A stretch of DNA of 34,976 bases. Origin: Acidimicrobiaceae bacterium (lineage in GTDB: Bacteria > Actinomycetota > Acidimicrobiia > Acidimicrobiales > RAAP-2). Each line of letters begins with the position of its first letter. Positions within the stretch are counted from its first letter, which is position 1. Made by a program: the position numbers and the translations under genes. The stretch is from the NCBI GenBank assembly GCA_003155915.1, contig PMFA01000024.1, positions 1-34,976 of the forward strand, written 5' to 3'. Below the pieces are notes generated by a model, which was not told the origin of the DNA, searched no databases, and saw only the letters and a program-made list of their open reading frames with translations. Positions 3,005 through 10,144 of the stretch are shown here, piece by piece.

Positions 3005-3562
3005 ATGGCCGCAATTGACGTCGCTGGGTTCGTCGCAGACCTCAAGGACCATGCGGTGACGCACGGATTTCACGTCCATGACGAGCGTCACTTTGTCGAG
3101 ACGTACTCGCTTCGCCAGGCGTGGGAAGTCGACCTGCATCCCGAGGACGGCTGTGGCGGACCCGTCGACCTGCACATCGAGCTCGACGTCGACCCCCGAA
3201 CGCTCCTCGCCTTCGAGGACGCGGTGTTGGGCCTTCCGGATGAGGTCGATCCACCGGACGAGTTTCATTTCCCGTTGGTGCTGACCTGGAGTCTCCCGCC
3301 GATGCCCCACGGCCCTGATCTACTGCGTCTCGCCATCGACCTCGCGCCGATCGGTGGCCTCGAGATGCCGCTCGAAGTCACCGCGACCGACGTATTCGCG
3401 TCGCCGACCGAGAGCAGCGAACGTCGAATTTCGATTGTCGCTCGCCGCGCAATCTCACTCAGTCAAGTCGCCAAGGGAGAAGATCCCCTCTGTGACATCT
3501 TCGAACGCGGGCGCAGTGTCAGCGACTTCTTGTTGCAAGCTGCCGACTCGTGGCTCGGGTAG
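3005..3562 (+). CDS. uncharacterised protein, 185 aa
   Basis: I do not recognise this family. It is a soluble, acidic protein with no signal peptide or membrane segment. The first half holds a His/Asp/Glu-rich stretch (AWEVDLHPEDGCGGPVDLHI) and the second half alternates beta-like strands. The strong third-position GC bias and the clean ATG behind a TAACCT box support coding. The last 13 nt overlap the start of the lipoprotein gene at 3550, so the two are probably translated together. The divergent phosphatase promoter lies immediately upstream. Confidence 0.7.
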   Translation: MAAIDVAGFVADLKDHAVTHGFHVHDERHFVETYSLRQAWEVDLHPEDGCGGPVDLHIELDVDPRTLLAFEDAVLGLPDEVDPPDEFHFPLVLTWSLPPMPHGPDLLRLAIDLAPIGGLEMPLEVTATDVFASPTESSERRISIVARRAISLSQVAKGEDPLCDIFERGRSVSDFLLQAADSWLG

Positions 3563-4280: not shown

Positions 4281-4404
4281 CGTCTCGGCTATGTGCGCTG
4301 TCATGTGCGTGGCCGGGCGCATCATGAACGGCGTGAGAAACGTACTGCGCTATGGCGCCCGTCGAGGGGTCCGGAAATGCGTCGAGGCACCTGTACTGGT
4401 CGCC

Positions 4405-5106
4405 ATGACACTCAAGAACGACCTCTTAGGACAGATGCGCTACGAATGGCTCCACGTGGGACACTCGTCGCGCGCTCGATTCGCGATGGCGACGTTCGCC
4501 GAGCGACACCAGGACCTGGACCTGGGTGCGCTGGGTGACCTGTACGACGTCGTGACCCTGCTCGAAGCTCGCGGCGGCCGCAACGTGCTCGAGCGTGCCC
4601 AGATCGTTCGCGCGCTCCTCGAAGAGTCGGCCGATCCCGAAATCCGCCGAGCGCTGTTGCAGACGCTCATCCCGGGCATCGTGAGCGTCTGTCGACAGTT
4701 ACGTTTCGGCGACGGCATCGTCGAAGACCCGAGTGAGACCGTGGGCGTAGCTCTCGGACTCGCGAGTGAGCTTTTGGTGGACTGGGCCGGCCAGTCGCGA
4801 CAGTACGCGGCGCCGGACATCCTCTCGGCCCTTCGCGGTCGCTTACGCCGGTGGTTGCTCAAGGAGAAGGCGGCGAGGCGCGTGGTCTCGAACTTCGATC
4901 AACCCGACGCACCAGCGATCGAAGCCTCGCCCTTGCTCGCCCGATTGCACAGCTTTCGCGGCAGCCAGTACGACCGGATTGCGCGACTGACCTACGCGCG
5001 TGTCTACGAGGGCCTCTCACTACGTGAAGTGGCCGCCCAGGACCATTCGGCGCCGGCGACGTTGCAAAAGGAGCTCCAGCACTTCGCCGTCCGCTTCCTC
5101 ATTTGA
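4405..5106 (+). CDS. sigma-region-4-like HTH protein
   Basis: A 233-aa protein, counted from the ATG at 4405 (MTLKNDLLGQMRYEW). The open frame runs upstream to 4261, but that part reads as non-coding. The final 50 residues resemble the helix-turn-helix of sigma-70 region 4 (RIARLTYARVYEGLSLREVA, then QDHSAPATLQKELQHF), the part that reads a -35 element in ECF-type factors. The N-terminal part is helical (DVVTLLEARGG, ERAQIVRALLEESADPEIRR) with no clear region 2, so it may be a divergent sigma-like regulator rather than a working sigma factor. It is followed after 65 nt by the secreted protein and the membrane-bound BTAD factor, all on one strand, so a shared regulatory role is plausible but unproven. 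Confidence 0.6.
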   Translation: MTLKNDLLGQMRYEWLHVGHSSRARFAMATFAERHQDLDLGALGDLYDVVTLLEARGGRNVLERAQIVRALLEESADPEIRRALLQTLIPGIVSVCRQLRFGDGIVEDPSETVGVALGLASELLVDWAGQSRQYAAPDILSALRGRLRRWLLKEKAARRVVSNFDQPDAPAIEASPLLARLHSFRGSQYDRIARLTYARVYEGLSLREVAAQDHSAPATLQKELQHFAVRFLI

Positions 5107-5156
5107 ATGAAACACCGGTCCAAAAATGTCGAATCGCTATTTGAACTCCTCACCGC

Positions 5157-5162
5157 TACCCT
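5157..5162 (+). promoter_or_regulatory. possible -10 box of the gene at 5172
   Basis: TACCCT, 9 nt before the ATG at 5172, where no ribosome site exists. This gives a possible short-leader or leaderless start separate from the upstream HTH gene. Confidence 0.3.
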
Positions 5163-5171
5163 ACGAAAACA

Positions 5172-5747
5172 ATGTCGCGCTCACCCTTTTCGCTGAAGAG
5201 CGCCCATCTCTTGATGTGGTCGAGTCCGCTCCTGCTGATCGTGCTGGTCTTCACGCTGAGCGCAAGCTCCACGCCGCGCGCCCCCGAGGCTTCGTCGCCC
5301 CCACCCTCTTCGACGTCACCGGTCAGCACCCAAGTCCCGAACTCGACGACGTCCACGAGTCCGACGACGACGACCACGTCGACGTCGACGCCAGTGATCG
5401 TGACGGCGAAGACCACGAAGACTACGTCGTCAGTCGCCAGAAACTTCTTGAGCGTGACCACGTCGAGCGTGAAGCCTGTCGCGCCGATATCGAACGCGAA
5501 CGCGCTGAGCGGAGAGTTGTCCGGAACCCTCGGGCCGGGATTCGAATCCGTCAACGTGCCGCTACTCGGACCAGGAAACTGGACCCTGAGCGCGAGCGGG
5601 TCAACGACCCAGTCGCTCAACTGCGGGGCGGACGCCAGTCCGGTCGTCAGTCAAGTGGTCGTGGGCTCCAACCAGAGTTGTCAGTTGGCGATCGCTTCTT
5701 CCTCGGCCGGGACGTCACTCACGTGGCAACTAACACCGAACAAGTAA
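5172..5747 (+). CDS. membrane-anchored Ser/Thr-rich secreted protein
   Basis: A 191-aa protein. A hydrophobic segment at about residues 12-31 (LLMWSSPLLLIVLVFTLSAS) is a signal peptide or anchor. A low-complexity Ser/Thr/Pro linker follows (about 33-100, with runs such as TSTSPTTTTTSTSTP) of the kind that spans cell walls and is often glycosylated. It ends in a small domain of about 85 aa with two cysteines (LNCGADAS and NQSCQLAI), probably a disulfide. I do not recognise the domain. The choice of this frame over the overlapping one rests on its strong third-position GC bias and coherent protein architecture. Its last 25 nt overlap the start of the BTAD factor, so the two are likely coupled and may work together. 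Confidence 0.7.
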   Translation: MSRSPFSLKSAHLLMWSSPLLLIVLVFTLSASSTPRAPEASSPPPSSTSPVSTQVPNSTTSTSPTTTTTSTSTPVIVTAKTTKTTSSVARNFLSVTTSSVKPVAPISNANALSGELSGTLGPGFESVNVPLLGPGNWTLSASGSTTQSLNCGADASPVVSQVVVGSNQSCQLAIASSSAGTSLTWQLTPNK

Positions 5748-7462
5748 ATCGATTCGCCGGACCCCTCCAGGGCTCGGCGCTGGCGATCTATTTCGTGTTG
5801 TTACCGTACGTGGTCGTCACCAAGTGGCACCGCACGCCGCGACAGAACGACGGGACGCTGGTTCGCGCGCTGCTCGTCGCTCTCGCCCTGTTCTGGCTGA
5901 TCTTCCTCGGCCAGGTCATCCGCGACGTGTGGCGTCTTCGCCGCGGTCGAGGTACCGGCACCGGTGGCAGTGCGTGGCTCGCCGGTGGCCTCGTCGCTCT
6001 CTTGTCGTTGCTCATTCCCACCTCAGCGGGCGCGCTCGCGCCCGGCGCCGCACCGCCCCAGTCGACCATTGACCGTTCGCTCGCGCTGACGCCGTCACGG
6101 CCCGCGCCCGTCACGCCACCGAATCGAATCCCGGCCCCGTGGTCTTCCAGTGCGAGCGTCTTGCCGCTCGCCCTCATGGCGAAACGACGCAGCGACTTGA
6201 TCCGACAGCACCAGTTCGCGGATACCGACTACGACGTCGACGAATCGATCGAACTGCTGCGCGCCCTCAATCCGATGTTGCTGAGCCATTTGCGTCAGAT
6301 GATCGGCGAACGACGTGACGGCGTCGTCGACATCCCGAACAGCATCGAGACGACCGAGACGGGTATTGGCAACATCGACGCGTACGTCGCGTGCGCCCTG
6401 ACGCCGTCGCCGCGTGGAACGCTCGTCAGTTTCGCGCGCGAAGGCGGCACCCTAGCGATCCTTCCGACGTGGAGTAGTCGCGACGTCATGGAAATGACGG
6501 TGGCCCTGCATCACGGCACACTGGTGTTCGCCGACAACGAGAACGAACTGTTGCGAGCGCTCGCGACTCGAAGCATGCGCAATACGGTCGTCGTCTACCT
6601 CGGAGACCGCGGCGGACTCGACGATGATTTGATCGCCTGTTCGATCACCTTGGCGCCCTACCTCGAGCAACCCCGAGCGCTCCCGACGTCGTCGTGGTCG
6701 AGCGTCGCCCCGCCAACGCGTCACGGTGGGGTTCGCGTCGAACTGCTCCGAGCCGAGCCGCACCTCGTCGGACTCGTCGAACCGCTGACGCCAACGCTTC
6801 GACGACGCGGCGTCGAGATGCTCGCCTATTTGGCGATGCACCGCCACGAGCCGATCACCGGCGAACGGCTCCGTACTCGAGTGCTAACCCACGCCGACGT
6901 CGACGCGTCCCTACGAACCCTCGCCAACACCGCGAGCGTGGTTCGACGAAGCGCCGGATTCGATGAACAAGGTCCGCGTCTTCACGCCGTCACGTCGTCG
7001 GGTCTCTACGTGACCCACGGCATCACCAGCGACGTTGAGGTGTTCACGACCTTGATCTCGCGGGCCCGTCAACTCGCCAACGCCGAGGCCGCGCCCCTCG
7101 CCCACCAAGCCCTGACGATGGTGAGAGGCGAGCCGCTCGCCAGCGCGCTTCGCGGCTTCGAGTGGTTCCTCGCCGAGGGCTTCGGCGCGCGTCTCGCGCG
7201 TGACGGCGAGTGGGCCGCGCTCGCATTGCATCATGACGCGCTCGCCAACGGCCGCTACGAAATGGCTTTCTGGGCGCTTCAGCAGGGACTGCTCATCGAT
7301 CCGTACAGCGACGTGCTGCTCGAGGCCAGTGCGCGAGTACCGCGTTTACGCGAGTTTGGACGCGATGGAGGTGGCCTTGCGCAACACCTGGCCATCGGCC
7401 CCAGCCGCGCTGTAGCGATGAGCTGGTCGCTGTACGGCTTCAGCAATCAGGTCACCAAGTAA
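5723..7462 (+). CDS. membrane-anchored SARP/BTAD-type transcription factor
   Basis: A 579-aa protein from the GTG at 5723. Upstream codons of the same frame overlap the better-supported gene at 5172 and read as highly charged nonsense. It has three predicted membrane segments (about residues 17-33, 46-66 and 85-105), then a cytoplasmic region. Residues about 335-430 look like a winged-helix domain (LTPTLRRRGVEMLAYLAMH, ITGERLRTRVL) and about 436-545 like a bacterial transcriptional activator domain (DVEVFTTLISRARQLA through WALQQGLLIDPYSD). This is the SARP core, but C-terminal and tethered to the membrane. Such proteins occur in actinobacteria; targets are unknown. The last 117 nt overlap, on the opposite strand, the end of the ligase gene at 7346. 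Confidence 0.7.
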   Translation: MATNTEQVNRFAGPLQGSALAIYFVLLPYVVVTKWHRTPRQNDGTLVRALLVALALFWLIFLGQVIRDVWRLRRGRGTGTGGSAWLAGGLVALLSLLIPTSAGALAPGAAPPQSTIDRSLALTPSRPAPVTPPNRIPAPWSSSASVLPLALMAKRRSDLIRQHQFADTDYDVDESIELLRALNPMLLSHLRQMIGERRDGVVDIPNSIETTETGIGNIDAYVACALTPSPRGTLVSFAREGGTLAILPTWSSRDVMEMTVALHHGTLVFADNENELLRALATRSMRNTVVVYLGDRGGLDDDLIACSITLAPYLEQPRALPTSSWSSVAPPTRHGGVRVELLRAEPHLVGLVEPLTPTLRRRGVEMLAYLAMHRHEPITGERLRTRVLTHADVDASLRTLANTASVVRRSAGFDEQGPRLHAVTSSGLYVTHGITSDVEVFTTLISRARQLANAEAAPLAHQALTMVRGEPLASALRGFEWFLAEGFGARLARDGEWAALALHHDALANGRYEMAFWALQQGLLIDPYSDVLLEASARVPRLREFGRDGGGLAQHLAIGPSRAVAMSWSLYGFSNQVTK

Positions 7463-8449
7463 CTGCGCGAAGGCGAGCGGCGGCTCGACGAAGAGGTGCT
7501 TGGCGAGTGACCCGGGAATCGTGTTGATCTCATTGACGAACAGTTCATCGTCGCTGGCGAGAAAGTCGACGCGCGCCACGCCGCGAACCGACGCCACCTC
7601 AGCGATTCTCGTCGTGATGTCACGCACCGCGTCGGCTTGGGCTTCGGGCATGACCGCGGGCAACTGACGTGGCGCCGACACCATCCCCTCGCCACCCACG
7701 TACTTGTCGCGGTAGTCGAGGATTTCGGACTGATCGGTACGTCGGAGGGGCCGTTCGATCGCCGAGAGGGCGAGCGCGGGATACGTCCGCACGGCGATCT
7801 GAATGTCCGCGAGGTCCGAACGGTACGGCTCGACGACGCAACCCAGTGCGAAATGCGGGTTGGTCCAGAGTCGAGCTGACGCGGTCGCGAGATCGGCCAC
7901 GACGTCAATCCCGATCGATGACCCGCCGAATCGCGGCTTCAATATGTACGGACCGTCGAAGGGCAGCGACGTCGTCGAGGTCTCCAGCAACGCGCGCGCC
8001 AACGTGGGGATGCCGACCGATGCCATGACTGCACCGAAGGACCATTTGTCCATGCCGAGCGCCGCGCCGGCGACCGTGGGTCCGGTGTAACTGACGCCGG
8101 CGAGATCGAGCGCGGCCTGCAGCGAGCCGTCCTCACCAGGCCCGCCGTGCGTGGCGAGGACGACGGCCTCGAGTTCGATCGCGCGATCCTTGCCCATGCG
8201 GGCGCTCGCGAAGAAGCCGCCCTGATTGCCGAGGCGAAGGCTCAGCTCACTCGAACCCTTGGGCAGACCGTCCAAGAACGCTTCGGCCTCGACGCCACGC
8301 GGCACGCTGTAGAACATGCCCGTTTTCGTCCAGTAGATCCCCACGACGTCCGAACCGGACCGCTCGAGTTCGTGAAGGGCCAAGAGTCCGGTCAGTATCG
8401 AGATGTCGTGCTCCGGCGTCGGCCCACCGAACAGCACGCCAACGCTCAC
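7346..8449 (-). CDS. ddl: D-alanine--D-alanine ligase
   Basis: An ATP-grasp enzyme joining two D-alanines for peptidoglycan. All hallmarks are visible: GGPTPEHDIS at the N-terminus (substrate Glu), HGGPGEDGSLQAALDLAG, MDKW, the ATP-binding ILKPRFGGSSIGI, and near the end VDFLASDDELFVNEINTIPG with the Asp, Glu and Asn that bind magnesium. I start at GTG 8447-8449 (367 aa), 5 nt after GAGGA; a TTG 18 nt upstream is possible. The C-terminus runs about 25 residues past the family's usual end (after AEAVQRPAHR), and this extension overlaps the convergent BTAD gene by 117 nt. It lies directly downstream of a MurF-like ligase whose substrate would be its product. D-Ala-D-Ala rather than D-Ala-D-Lac is assumed. 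Confidence 0.92.
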   Translation of the reverse strand: MSVGVLFGGPTPEHDISILTGLLALHELERSGSDVVGIYWTKTGMFYSVPRGVEAEAFLDGLPKGSSELSLRLGNQGGFFASARMGKDRAIELEAVVLATHGGPGEDGSLQAALDLAGVSYTGPTVAGAALGMDKWSFGAVMASVGIPTLARALLETSTTSLPFDGPYILKPRFGGSSIGIDVVADLATASARLWTNPHFALGCVVEPYRSDLADIQIAVRTYPALALSAIERPLRRTDQSEILDYRDKYVGGEGMVSAPRQLPAVMPEAQADAVRDITTRIAEVASVRGVARVDFLASDDELFVNEINTIPGSLAKHLFVEPPLAFAQLLGDLIAEAVQRPAHRYSAAGADGQVLRKATSIASKLA

Positions 8450-8479
8450 CGGGTTCCTCGCAGCCAAGTCATGTGAGCA

Positions 8480-10144
8480 TCAAGGGTAGTGGTCAGGCAG
8501 GTCGTTGAGATACAGCACGCCGTCACCGGGCACCAGCGCCGATCGAACCCACGTCACGGCCTCGTCTCGGGTGTTGAATCGGCGCACCGGCCCATCAAAA
8601 CCGAGCGTGAGCGGCACGGCGTTGGTGCGATTGACGATCACGAGTTCGAGTCCGTTGAACGCGATCTTTCTCGCCAGGGCGAGGTTCTCCCCGTACTGGT
8701 CGCGACCGAGTTCGACCATTCCCGGCGTGACCACCACGCGTCGACCGGACAGCGTCAAGTTCGTGAGCACCTTCAGGGCCGACGCGGCACTCGCCGGATT
8801 GGCGTTGAACGTGTCGTCGATGACCTGGACGCCCGATGCGGCGGTGACGACGTTGGATCGATTCTCGATGGCGCTGACGCGGCGGATCCGATCGAGCAGT
8901 TCACCAATCTCGACGCCGAGCTCGAGCGCGGCCGCGAGCGCGCAGGCCAGATTGGTCGGTTGTACGCCCTGAATCGCCGGGCCGGTGCCGATGACGACGC
9001 CGTCGACGCTCACGATCCAGTTCGAGCCCTCGACGCGCACACGAACCGACGCCGACTCATTTATCGAACCCGCGCTGCGCACGCGCGTGCCCGCATCGGC
9101 GAGCCGTGGGGGCCAACGCGCGAGCACCAGATCATCCACGTTGACAATCACCACCGAGGCACGCTCCGTGATCTCGTACTTCGCCGCCTCGATGACCTCC
9201 AGGCGCTTCATACGTTCCAGGTGGACCGGACCGATCGCCGTCACCACGGCAATCTCGGGTACGCACCACGAACAGAGCGAACGAATCTCGCCGGGGCCGT
9301 AGGTCCCCATCTCGGCGACGAACACCCGCGTACCCTCGGCCAGGTTCTCGTTGATGGCCCGCGAGAGACCGGCGCGATTGTTGAAGCTGCGCGGCGTGGC
9401 GACGACGCCGTCATCGCCCATGAGCTGGGCGAGGTGGTTCTTCGTTGAGGTCTTGCCGTACGAACCGGTAATGGCGACCACACGCGGATGAACGTGCTCG
9501 AGTCGCGCGACGGCCTGGTCGACGAACTTTTTCGAACGGTGTTCTTCGTACGGCTTGAGGAGACGGGTCGTGAGGTCGAGTATCACGGGGACGGCCCACA
9601 CCACGACCGCGGCCGGGAGCCACGGTCGCGACGAGACGAGTCCGATGAGCGCGATGGCGAGCGACGCGATGGTCGCGACGACCGCGATCGTCGTCGCCCT
9701 TCGCGTCCACACCAAGTGACCCGTGCGACCCTTGATCGAAAGCCCCCACGGACTGAAGAGACCGTAGAGGACGGCGACCGCGACGAGTGCACTCTCGTTC
9801 TTGACAAAGAGGGTCACGACGAAGGCCACGATTAGAACCTGCGTCAACGTGATCGGTCGACGCATTCCCCGTTCGGGCTTCGGCCTCAGTCGATCTTGCT
9901 CGTGGCGATGGGCACCCTGAAACTCATCACGTGGAGCCGTCAGGATCGCGACATCGAACTGCGCGGCGCGAACCTTCGACTTGGGAATCGTCGCGATCTG
10001 CGGCGAGGACCAACGGCCCACGAAGCGAGCTATGGCGCTCGCCTCGTAGTGTTCGCGCTGTAAGACCCGCAACCAGCGAAGCAACTGGGCGACGTAGGCG
10101 CCGCCCAGTGCGACGAAGAAGAGAACATCCAGCGCGACGTGCAC
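8480..10144 (-). CDS. membrane-anchored MurF-like Mur ligase
   Basis: A 554-aa, two-part protein. Residues about 1-190 hold several hydrophobic segments (near 3-20, 100-130 and 150-190), unlike the soluble MurF of model bacteria. The rest is a Mur ligase with a P-loop ITGSYGKTSTKNHL, SFNNRAGLSRAIN, VAEMGTYGPGEI, a catalytic-region His (IGPVHLERM) and DDTFNANPAS, the MurF-type signature. The likely reaction is ATP-driven addition of D-Ala-D-Ala, or another D-amino-acid unit, to a UDP-MurNAc-peptide or related acceptor at the membrane. The GTG start overlaps the hydrolase stop by one base (TAGTG), and ddl follows within about 30 nt, so the three genes form an operon. It could be the cell's main MurF or a second, specialised one; the window does not show the dcw cluster. 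Confidence 0.8.
   Translation of the reverse strand: MHVALDVLFFVALGGAYVAQLLRWLRVLQREHYEASAIARFVGRWSSPQIATIPKSKVRAAQFDVAILTAPRDEFQGAHRHEQDRLRPKPERGMRRPITLTQVLIVAFVVTLFVKNESALVAVAVLYGLFSPWGLSIKGRTGHLVWTRRATTIAVVATIASLAIALIGLVSSRPWLPAAVVVWAVPVILDLTTRLLKPYEEHRSKKFVDQAVARLEHVHPRVVAITGSYGKTSTKNHLAQLMGDDGVVATPRSFNNRAGLSRAINENLAEGTRVFVAEMGTYGPGEIRSLCSWCVPEIAVVTAIGPVHLERMKRLEVIEAAKYEITERASVVIVNVDDLVLARWPPRLADAGTRVRSAGSINESASVRVRVEGSNWIVSVDGVVIGTGPAIQGVQPTNLACALAAALELGVEIGELLDRIRRVSAIENRSNVVTAASGVQVIDDTFNANPASAASALKVLTNLTLSGRRVVVTPGMVELGRDQYGENLALARKIAFNGLELVIVNRTNAVPLTLGFDGPVRRFNTRDEAVTWVRSALVPGDGVLYLNDLPDHYP

Follow-up and report, generated by a model that had tools for sequence, protein, structure and literature searches.

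The contig PMFA01000024.1 from an Acidimicrobiaceae bacterium (assembly GCA_003155915.1; host genome 2.5 Mb) carries three consecutive genes, here named SIG, SEC and REG, and raises the question of whether they act as one unit and how much DNA the last two share. The window, by which the whole analysed stretch of 34,976 nucleotides is meant, had received a first-pass annotation that described three plus-strand open reading frames (ORFs) in a row, the last two overlapping by 25 nt. The ORF list confirms the three frames and their coordinates. The overlap was underestimated, as in relatives the REG frame is free of stops across SEC. This nested, dual-coding arrangement of SEC and REG is the part worth following, and it belongs to a wider account of the locus that is on balance probable: the trio would be a membrane-bound transcription-control cassette of the kind that accompanies Tad loci, kept without TadE and, in the window, without LysM, with REG as a SARP-type activator and SIG as its partner.

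The loci compared are labelled L with a number. A scan with SIG gave a genus-near set of 75 loci, and 65 of these, with at least 2600 nt downstream, can be tested for REG and SEC. The closest relatives by SIG are Acidimicrobiaceae metagenome-assembled genomes, with palsa or bog named for many of the 75. The 25 SIG stretches outside the genus are L071-L095; one further match (G129:C88) was left out.

The REG frame is open from position 5111, with a first ATG at 5126, 46 nt before the SEC start, and remains open across all of SEC. SEC (5172-5747) lies entirely inside the frame 5126-7462, giving about 576 dual-coding bases. The stops of this frame were compared with shuffles that preserve the protein and the codon usage of every SEC gene and do not preserve codon-boundary pairs. 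In 67 SEC genes the REG frame holds 17 stops against 142 expected, and 62 genes are open against 11.8 expected. All 17 stops are confined to five loci (L138, L143, L145, L157 and L177), and the 62 open genes, including that of the window, contain none against about 126 expected. Every part of SEC is affected: 0 stops against 26 in the N-terminal 36 codons, 0 against 33 in the linker and 0 against 54 in the last 90 codons. The third frame of SEC has 484 stops against 436 expected, and for SIG, the body of REG and five genes nearby, the corresponding frame carries 0.79-1.01 of the expected stops.

Codon choice in the 62 open SEC genes follows the same pattern. A T-ending codon never precedes a codon beginning with AA, AG or GA (0 of 1533), where about 97 would be expected from REG control rates. 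Such codons are also rarer before codons beginning with GC and GT (2.0% and 1.0% in SEC against 7.5% and 5.9% in REG), places at which a T would give Cys in the REG frame; no such drop from the control rates occurs before codons that start with C or before most that start with T. Cys in the REG frame occurs 37 times against 192 expected (0.19), compared with 0.58-0.60 in the SIG and REG controls; as the shuffles do not keep codon-boundary pairs, only this contrast with control genes counts. The five closed SEC genes have 17 stops against 16 expected, and 12 Cys against 21. Divergence at fourfold-degenerate sites is 0.386 in SEC, 0.476 in REG and 0.482 in SIG, and is lower in SEC than in REG in 40 of 45 pairs, which share ancestry and are not independent. 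The SEC proteins diverge faster despite these slower sites, and in two closed pairs (both with L143) the SEC value is the higher (0.74 and 0.71 against 0.66 and 0.67). Given the REG-frame protein, the SEC frame holds 0 stops against 47 expected, a result that is partly circular because SEC genes were collected as ORFs. The absence of stops, the normal behaviour of the other frame and the controls, the depletion of Cys and the slowed silent sites together suggest that SEC is nested out of frame in REG. Comparison of the aligned relatives thus shows a frame-specific constraint on the SEC stretch, with both the SEC and the REG frames constrained.

The start at GTG 5723 chosen by the first-pass annotation implies a simpler arrangement, in which REG begins only there, the 25-nt overlap couples its translation to that of SEC, and Ser/Thr codons in GC-rich DNA leave the upstream frame open as a side effect. 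Synonymous shuffles of the window are also open in 8% of cases (160 of 2000), a start codon (ATG, GTG or TTG) is present at the internal place in 56 of 67 loci, and relatives with a closed frame manage without the extension. This explanation is nevertheless distinctly improbable in view of the number of open relatives, the lack of stops in each of the three SEC parts, the absence of such depletion from the other frame and the seven control gene sets, the depletion of Cys and the slowed silent sites. Composition as the cause of the open frame was rejected on the relatives and control genes, in spite of the 8% of window shuffles that are open. The conservation of the internal GTG was likewise weakened as proof of a start, because its G is the last base of the SEC codon before TGG, and a G precedes this TGG at 47 of 60 loci compared with 90 of 164 other TGG codons. 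If the long form of REG holds, GTG 5723 would be an internal start.

Candidate starts for long REG are common. An in-frame ATG or GTG lies at -60 to -15 of the SEC start in 52 of 60 loci, and six of the remaining eight, on inspection, have TTG or GTG further upstream. Near-full-length REG matches lie in frames of at least 640 amino acids (aa) in 73 of 78 cases and in frames of 545-579 aa in the other five; the genomes behind these matches probably overlap those of the SIG scan, so they are not an independent set. Programmed frameshifting could also draw on the openness of the REG frame along all of SEC in 62 of 67 loci, as a shift anywhere would then give a SEC-REG fusion in which the transmembrane (TM) helix of SEC serves as an extra membrane anchor. 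Such a fusion is very unlikely: frameshifting needs an open frame only past the slip site, but constraint already acts on the first 36 codons, and the upstream ATG or GTG codons offer REG a start of its own.

Several points weigh against a long REG. Cys, Pro and Tyr deviate in control genes too in the shuffle test. The REG frame has a mean identity of 0.24, below the 0.34 of SEC, and the short REG-only stretch upstream of SEC has only slight codon-position bias (0.151, 0.113, 0.165). A Shine-Dalgarno-like match of at least four bases is found ahead of the long start in no more than 21 of 52 loci (shuffled rate 0.186) and is weak in the window. Finally, the frame is closed in L174 as well as in the five loci with stops, and long REG is therefore dispensable in these six.

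The distribution of open and closed frames bears on the origin of the overlap. In L080, from another genus of the family, the REG frame opens only at the SEC end, and in L079 and L077 it extends only partly into SEC. Among members of the genus, L153, L159, L172 and L173 have an open REG frame; L174, L177 and the branch of L138, L143 and L145 have it closed, as does L157, which is absent from the tree. This tree, made with FastTree and printed without support values, places L153 and L159 as the first branches of the genus. The most economical interpretation is that the REG extension arose by overprinting an existing, older SEC gene at the base of the genus or before it, and that some lines closed the frame again. 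The features of the locus are collected in Table 1.

Table 1. Coordinates of the SIG, SEC and REG genes and of features within and upstream of them.
Feature	Position	Strand	Description	Basis
SIG	4405..5106	+	233-aa all-helical divergent sigma-like protein	alignments, AlphaFold2 (AF2) model, profile-profile matches
SEC	5172..5747	+	191-aa membrane-anchored or secreted Ser/Thr-rich protein, out of frame inside REG-long	17-row alignment, fourfold-site divergence
REG-long	5126..7462	+	778-aa reading; charged N-terminal extension, 199 codons over SEC	open frame, stop depletion, upstream starts
REG-short	5723..7462	+	579 aa from the internal GTG of the first-pass annotation	start codon common at this place
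REG, three TM helices	5765..6034	+	REG-short residues 15-33, 44-62, 86-104	hydropathy, AF2 helices
REG, weak fourth membrane segment ending in AKRR	6146..6190	+		comparison with L079, L080, L153, L159
REG, SARP-like winged helix and all-helical BTAD-like domain	6731..7342	+	residues 337-540	AF2, Foldseek, hhalign
SIG upstream region, G-rich repeats (12-nt steps) and -10-like TGTACT	4354..4397	+		73 aligned loci
SEC -10-like TACCCT	5157..5162	+	within REG-long	67 aligned loci

REG had been described as a SARP-type winged-helix/BTAD factor with three membrane helices. The AF2 model of short REG (46 sequences; mean predicted local distance difference test score (pLDDT) 82, predicted template modelling score (pTM) 0.48) begins with the three helices and a stretch of low confidence, after which come an alpha/beta domain (199-312), a winged helix and, at the end, an all-helical part. 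The last two, modelled as an OmpR-type winged helix and an all-helical BTAD, find AfsR (E 4e-6) and EmbR (E 1e-3) as their best solved matches when the REG model is searched with Foldseek. By hhalign, residues 335-539 match the LysM-BTAD family (probability 99.9, E 2e-32). Sequence searches gave less. Pfam BTAD matches neither the window REG (E up to 1) nor anything in the host genome (E up to 0.001), Trans_reg_C reaches 13.7 bits against a cut-off of 26.2, a sequence search of solved structures returned nothing useful, and Pfam and NCBIfam hold nothing above cut-off for SIG, SEC or REG. BTAD does score in REG relatives (3.6e-7 in L071, 1e-12 in L042). The BTAD of REG is thus an assignment by modelled fold and profile-profile match; with this change of basis the earlier description stands, as does, in the model, the DNA-binding fold on which it depended, and relatives suggest a short fourth membrane segment in addition.

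LysM lies between the third and fourth TM helices in relatives, above cut-off in L071 (3.6e-10) and in L079, L080 and L040 (about 2e-4), and by eye in L153 and L159. L153 (judged via L040, on the same contig) and L159 keep both LysM and the last hydrophobic stretch before the basic motif. In the window REG, Pfam and NCBIfam find no LysM match, and comparison shows that the domain is lost from its sequence. The membrane stretch before the basic motif is a clearer TM in other genera, but a weak one in the window. From this comparison REG would pass the membrane four times, placing the SARP part inside, but three helices in 49 of 65 REG proteins and two in 16 are what hydropathy over the first 150 residues gives. 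Further matches to REG residues ~359-532 occur in several genomes of the genus, and in one genus genome, at L046:1406-3393, a second SIG-like ORF stands beside an ORF resembling the REG C-terminus, on opposite strands.

The AF2 model of SIG (51 sequences; pLDDT 90) is helical throughout. Most of the 50 matches listed by Foldseek are sigma-RNA polymerase or sigma/anti-sigma entries, the best having E 0.14 and probability 0.80. No sigma family was matched in a Pfam/NCBIfam search of the window SIG, and the SIG of the distant relative L071 matches NCBIfam sigma70-ECF over residues 105-259 with E 2e-4, below cut-off. The genus SIG and the SIG of other genera and families are joined by profile-profile comparison (hhalign probability 99.9). 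The label 'sigma-region-4-like' given to SIG may be too narrow in its restriction to region 4, given the helical full-length model and the span of the L071 match. An ATG aligns with the SIG start at 4405 in 73 of 73 loci, and the open frames of L035, L039 and L040 (236-241 codons) are too short for a 281-aa reading of SIG. The frame upstream of this ATG is also open in many nearer relatives, so that the start is supported and not proven. In another family, L076:9060-12772 carries two SIG-like genes on one strand, and REG was not seen in the stretch examined.

SEC fits its earlier description as a membrane-anchored Ser/Thr-rich protein: a single N-terminal TM helix (residues 13-31) is followed by a Ser/Thr/Pro linker and a conserved C-terminal part. 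Seven columns are invariant in 17 aligned rows (G118, L120, W137, C151, C170, W185 and L187), and two Cys and two Trp among them fall within the last third of the protein.

Co-occurrence of the three families, on which the proposal of a joint outside-to-inside signalling module relied, is borne out by comparison within the genus. REG was found in 94 of 99 genus genomes, and downstream of SIG in all 65 testable loci, with SEC between them in 62 by profile; the other three (L172-L174) have, by eye, an ORF with a TM helix and two Cys at the SEC place. The flanking genes, from a phosphatase-like to a MurF-like gene, are syntenic in the genus as well, so that co-occurrence here is weak evidence of joint function. 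A neutral neighbourhood, in which three unrelated genes are kept together by conservation of the whole chromosomal segment, would agree with this and with the failure to see REG in 12 of the 25 outside SIG stretches, some of them cut by contig ends. We regard it as unlikely, because the genes also meet elsewhere. In L082, from another family, SIG, a Ser/Pro-rich TM protein and REG follow one another between flanking genes that differ from those in the window, which is better evidence of joint function than synteny within the genus. In L086 and L091, SIG and REG are again neighbours, and between SIG and the REG domains lies an open frame with a TM helix and a Pro/Thr-rich stretch. SIG also accompanies REG in Tad loci, and the SEC/REG overlap ties these two genes physically. 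A jointly acting trio is the reading pursued below.

The Tad link comes from outside the genus. A SIG profile search over 298 genomes of the order matched 31. SIG, CpaF and REG occur together in six of the 25 outside stretches, from four genomes (L071, L072, L073, L075, L087 and L094), and SIG with REG in a further seven in which CpaF was not seen (L074, L077, L079, L080, L082, L086 and L091). A search for TadE drew a blank in all 32 genus genomes covered (0 of 25 and 0 of 7), many of them incomplete, and in three genomes of two other genera of the family. In other families it is present in 16 of 16 genomes of one set and 14 of 16 of a second, G039 being common to both. T2SSF, which also marks other pili, is present in the host genome. 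As TadE was not found in the genus, the trio is read as an orphan regulatory cassette that later lost LysM. Searched against plasmid records, the L071 REG matched 89, of which 60 are from Streptomyces; most cover the TM/LysM part only among the matches listed, and the 15 listed comprise 12 LysM proteins, two bacterial transcriptional activator domain proteins and one hypothetical protein.

A precedent for such a pairing is found on the Propionibacterium acnes plasmid pIMPLE-HL096PA1, where, according to PMC3666418, the sigma-70 gene PAGK_2357 lies upstream of a Tad locus and the LysM/BTAD gene PAGK_2369 within it. As in the present case, one locus combines a sigma-like gene with a large membrane protein whose end is formed by a BTAD region. 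Here, in contrast to what that text describes, no Tad genes adjoin, setting the trio apart from the LysM-BTAD regulators of Tad loci; the window REG has no LysM, and SEC is present and nested. Homology of SIG and REG to Tad-locus genes was found by profile within the order, with the P. acnes sequences themselves outside the comparison. The first-pass annotation knew of no described system with this exact set. Neither the trio nor its overlap is described in the titles and abstract beginnings listed from the open-licence papers searched. The pairing of SIG with LysM-BTAD proteins in Tad loci, with its P. acnes precedent, tells against that statement, so that the first interpretation is partly right and has a precedent. 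The trio is best read, from its homologies and neighbours, as regulatory genes of Tad-locus kind kept without the pilus.

Upstream of SIG, 73 aligned loci share G-rich repeats with self-similarity raised at lags 12 and 24 (0.366 and 0.373). TGTACT (4392-4397), a -10-like element, lies 7 nt before the SIG ATG, and a TANNNT-like element in 67 aligned loci, TACCCT in the window (5157-5162), lies 9 nt before the SEC ATG. These suggest leaderless starts for SIG and SEC, with a candidate promoter before SEC. The conserved element GAGAAATG is found with the 12-nt-step repeats at 4335-4397. The sites reported for SARPs are direct repeats spaced by 11 or 22 bp, the final one lying 8 bp away from the -10; AfsR makes contact with region 4 of sigma and holds it (PMC10936776). 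A 12-nt step differs from this spacing, which makes the repeats a lead and not a result; they suggest putative autoregulation by REG, perhaps with SIG.

It is possible to draw these features into one mechanism. REG would be a membrane-embedded SARP-type activator whose chain starts inside, runs through its TM helices to a linker facing the wall, and returns by a short last TM helix to a cytoplasmic winged helix and BTAD; SIG would be its sigma-like partner. A state of the wall or surface, perceived via SEC and the outer REG linker, might allow REG to bind the direct repeats and to hold SIG or the housekeeping sigma, much as AfsR does with sigma region 4. Two frames of the same DNA would yield SEC and the N-terminal, cytoplasmic extension of REG. 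A bolder form of this proposal, to which we give a little less than an even chance, is that the same stretch of some 576 bases codes for an outer sensor and also for the cytoplasmic tail of the membrane-bound transcription factor belonging to that sensor; the regulator would have overprinted the sensor gene, and the pair would have been held across one genus. The locus may then switch between long REG, made from the SIG operon, and SEC with short REG, made from the internal leaderless promoter.

Other observations count against the cassette and its mechanism. The fourth TM segment is weak, which makes the four-pass topology of REG tentative, and the sigma function of SIG rests on weak matches. 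The neutral points given above, syntenic flanks and stretches in which REG was not seen, belong here too. Relatives of SEC outside the genus are not significant by sequence (hhalign probability 1.3), so SEC is linked to the SEC-like genes by position and layout only. Upstream of SIG the other lags lie at 0.243-0.324, and lag 11 is not raised (0.275).

By fold match, REG shares with the SARP activators AfsR and EmbR a winged helix followed by an all-helical BTAD. It differs from them in being membrane-bound, with a C-terminal SARP part, an extra alpha/beta domain and a TM region, and in not reaching Pfam BTAD. One-component regulators of the ToxR/CadC type are membrane-tethered winged-helix proteins with an N-terminal DNA-binding domain and one TM helix. 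A DNA-binding winged helix is tethered to the membrane in REG as well, but in REG it is C-terminal, follows several TM helices and is joined to a BTAD. For the overlap the nearest likeness is the rnpA-rpmH pair of Thermus, in which nesting reportedly gives the protein of the longer gene an N-terminal extension. As in SEC/REG, a complete gene is nested out of frame in a longer gene starting just upstream (Feltens, 2003, as related in PMC9841429). The two ATGs in Thermus are separated by one nucleotide according to the same text. In SEC/REG the starts are 46 nt apart, an outer protein is encoded within the gene of a membrane regulator, and the arrangement is predicted from sequence. Annotation programs usually disallow long overlaps on the same strand (PMC8665328).

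Convergent to REG lie D-Ala-D-Ala-ligase-like and MurF-like genes (7346-10144, minus strand). The last 117 nt of REG are shared with the ligase-like ORF on the opposite strand, and similar overlaps are present in relatives such as L021. On the other side, 3005-3562 (plus strand) encodes a 185-aa protein with no Pfam/NCBIfam match that is unusually conserved: its identity is 94-99% at 13 of the 17 genus loci matched and 70-89% at the other four, compared with 32-69% for a lipoprotein-like neighbouring ORF and 42-75% for SIG.

The presence of Tad-locus-type regulators in genomes that yielded no TadE raises the question of what membrane-bound SARPs sense and control. A nested pair backed by many relatives is also well suited to studying how overlapping genes arise and persist in bacteria, as in SEC/REG the older gene (SEC), the newer frame (the REG extension) and natural reversions can be named.

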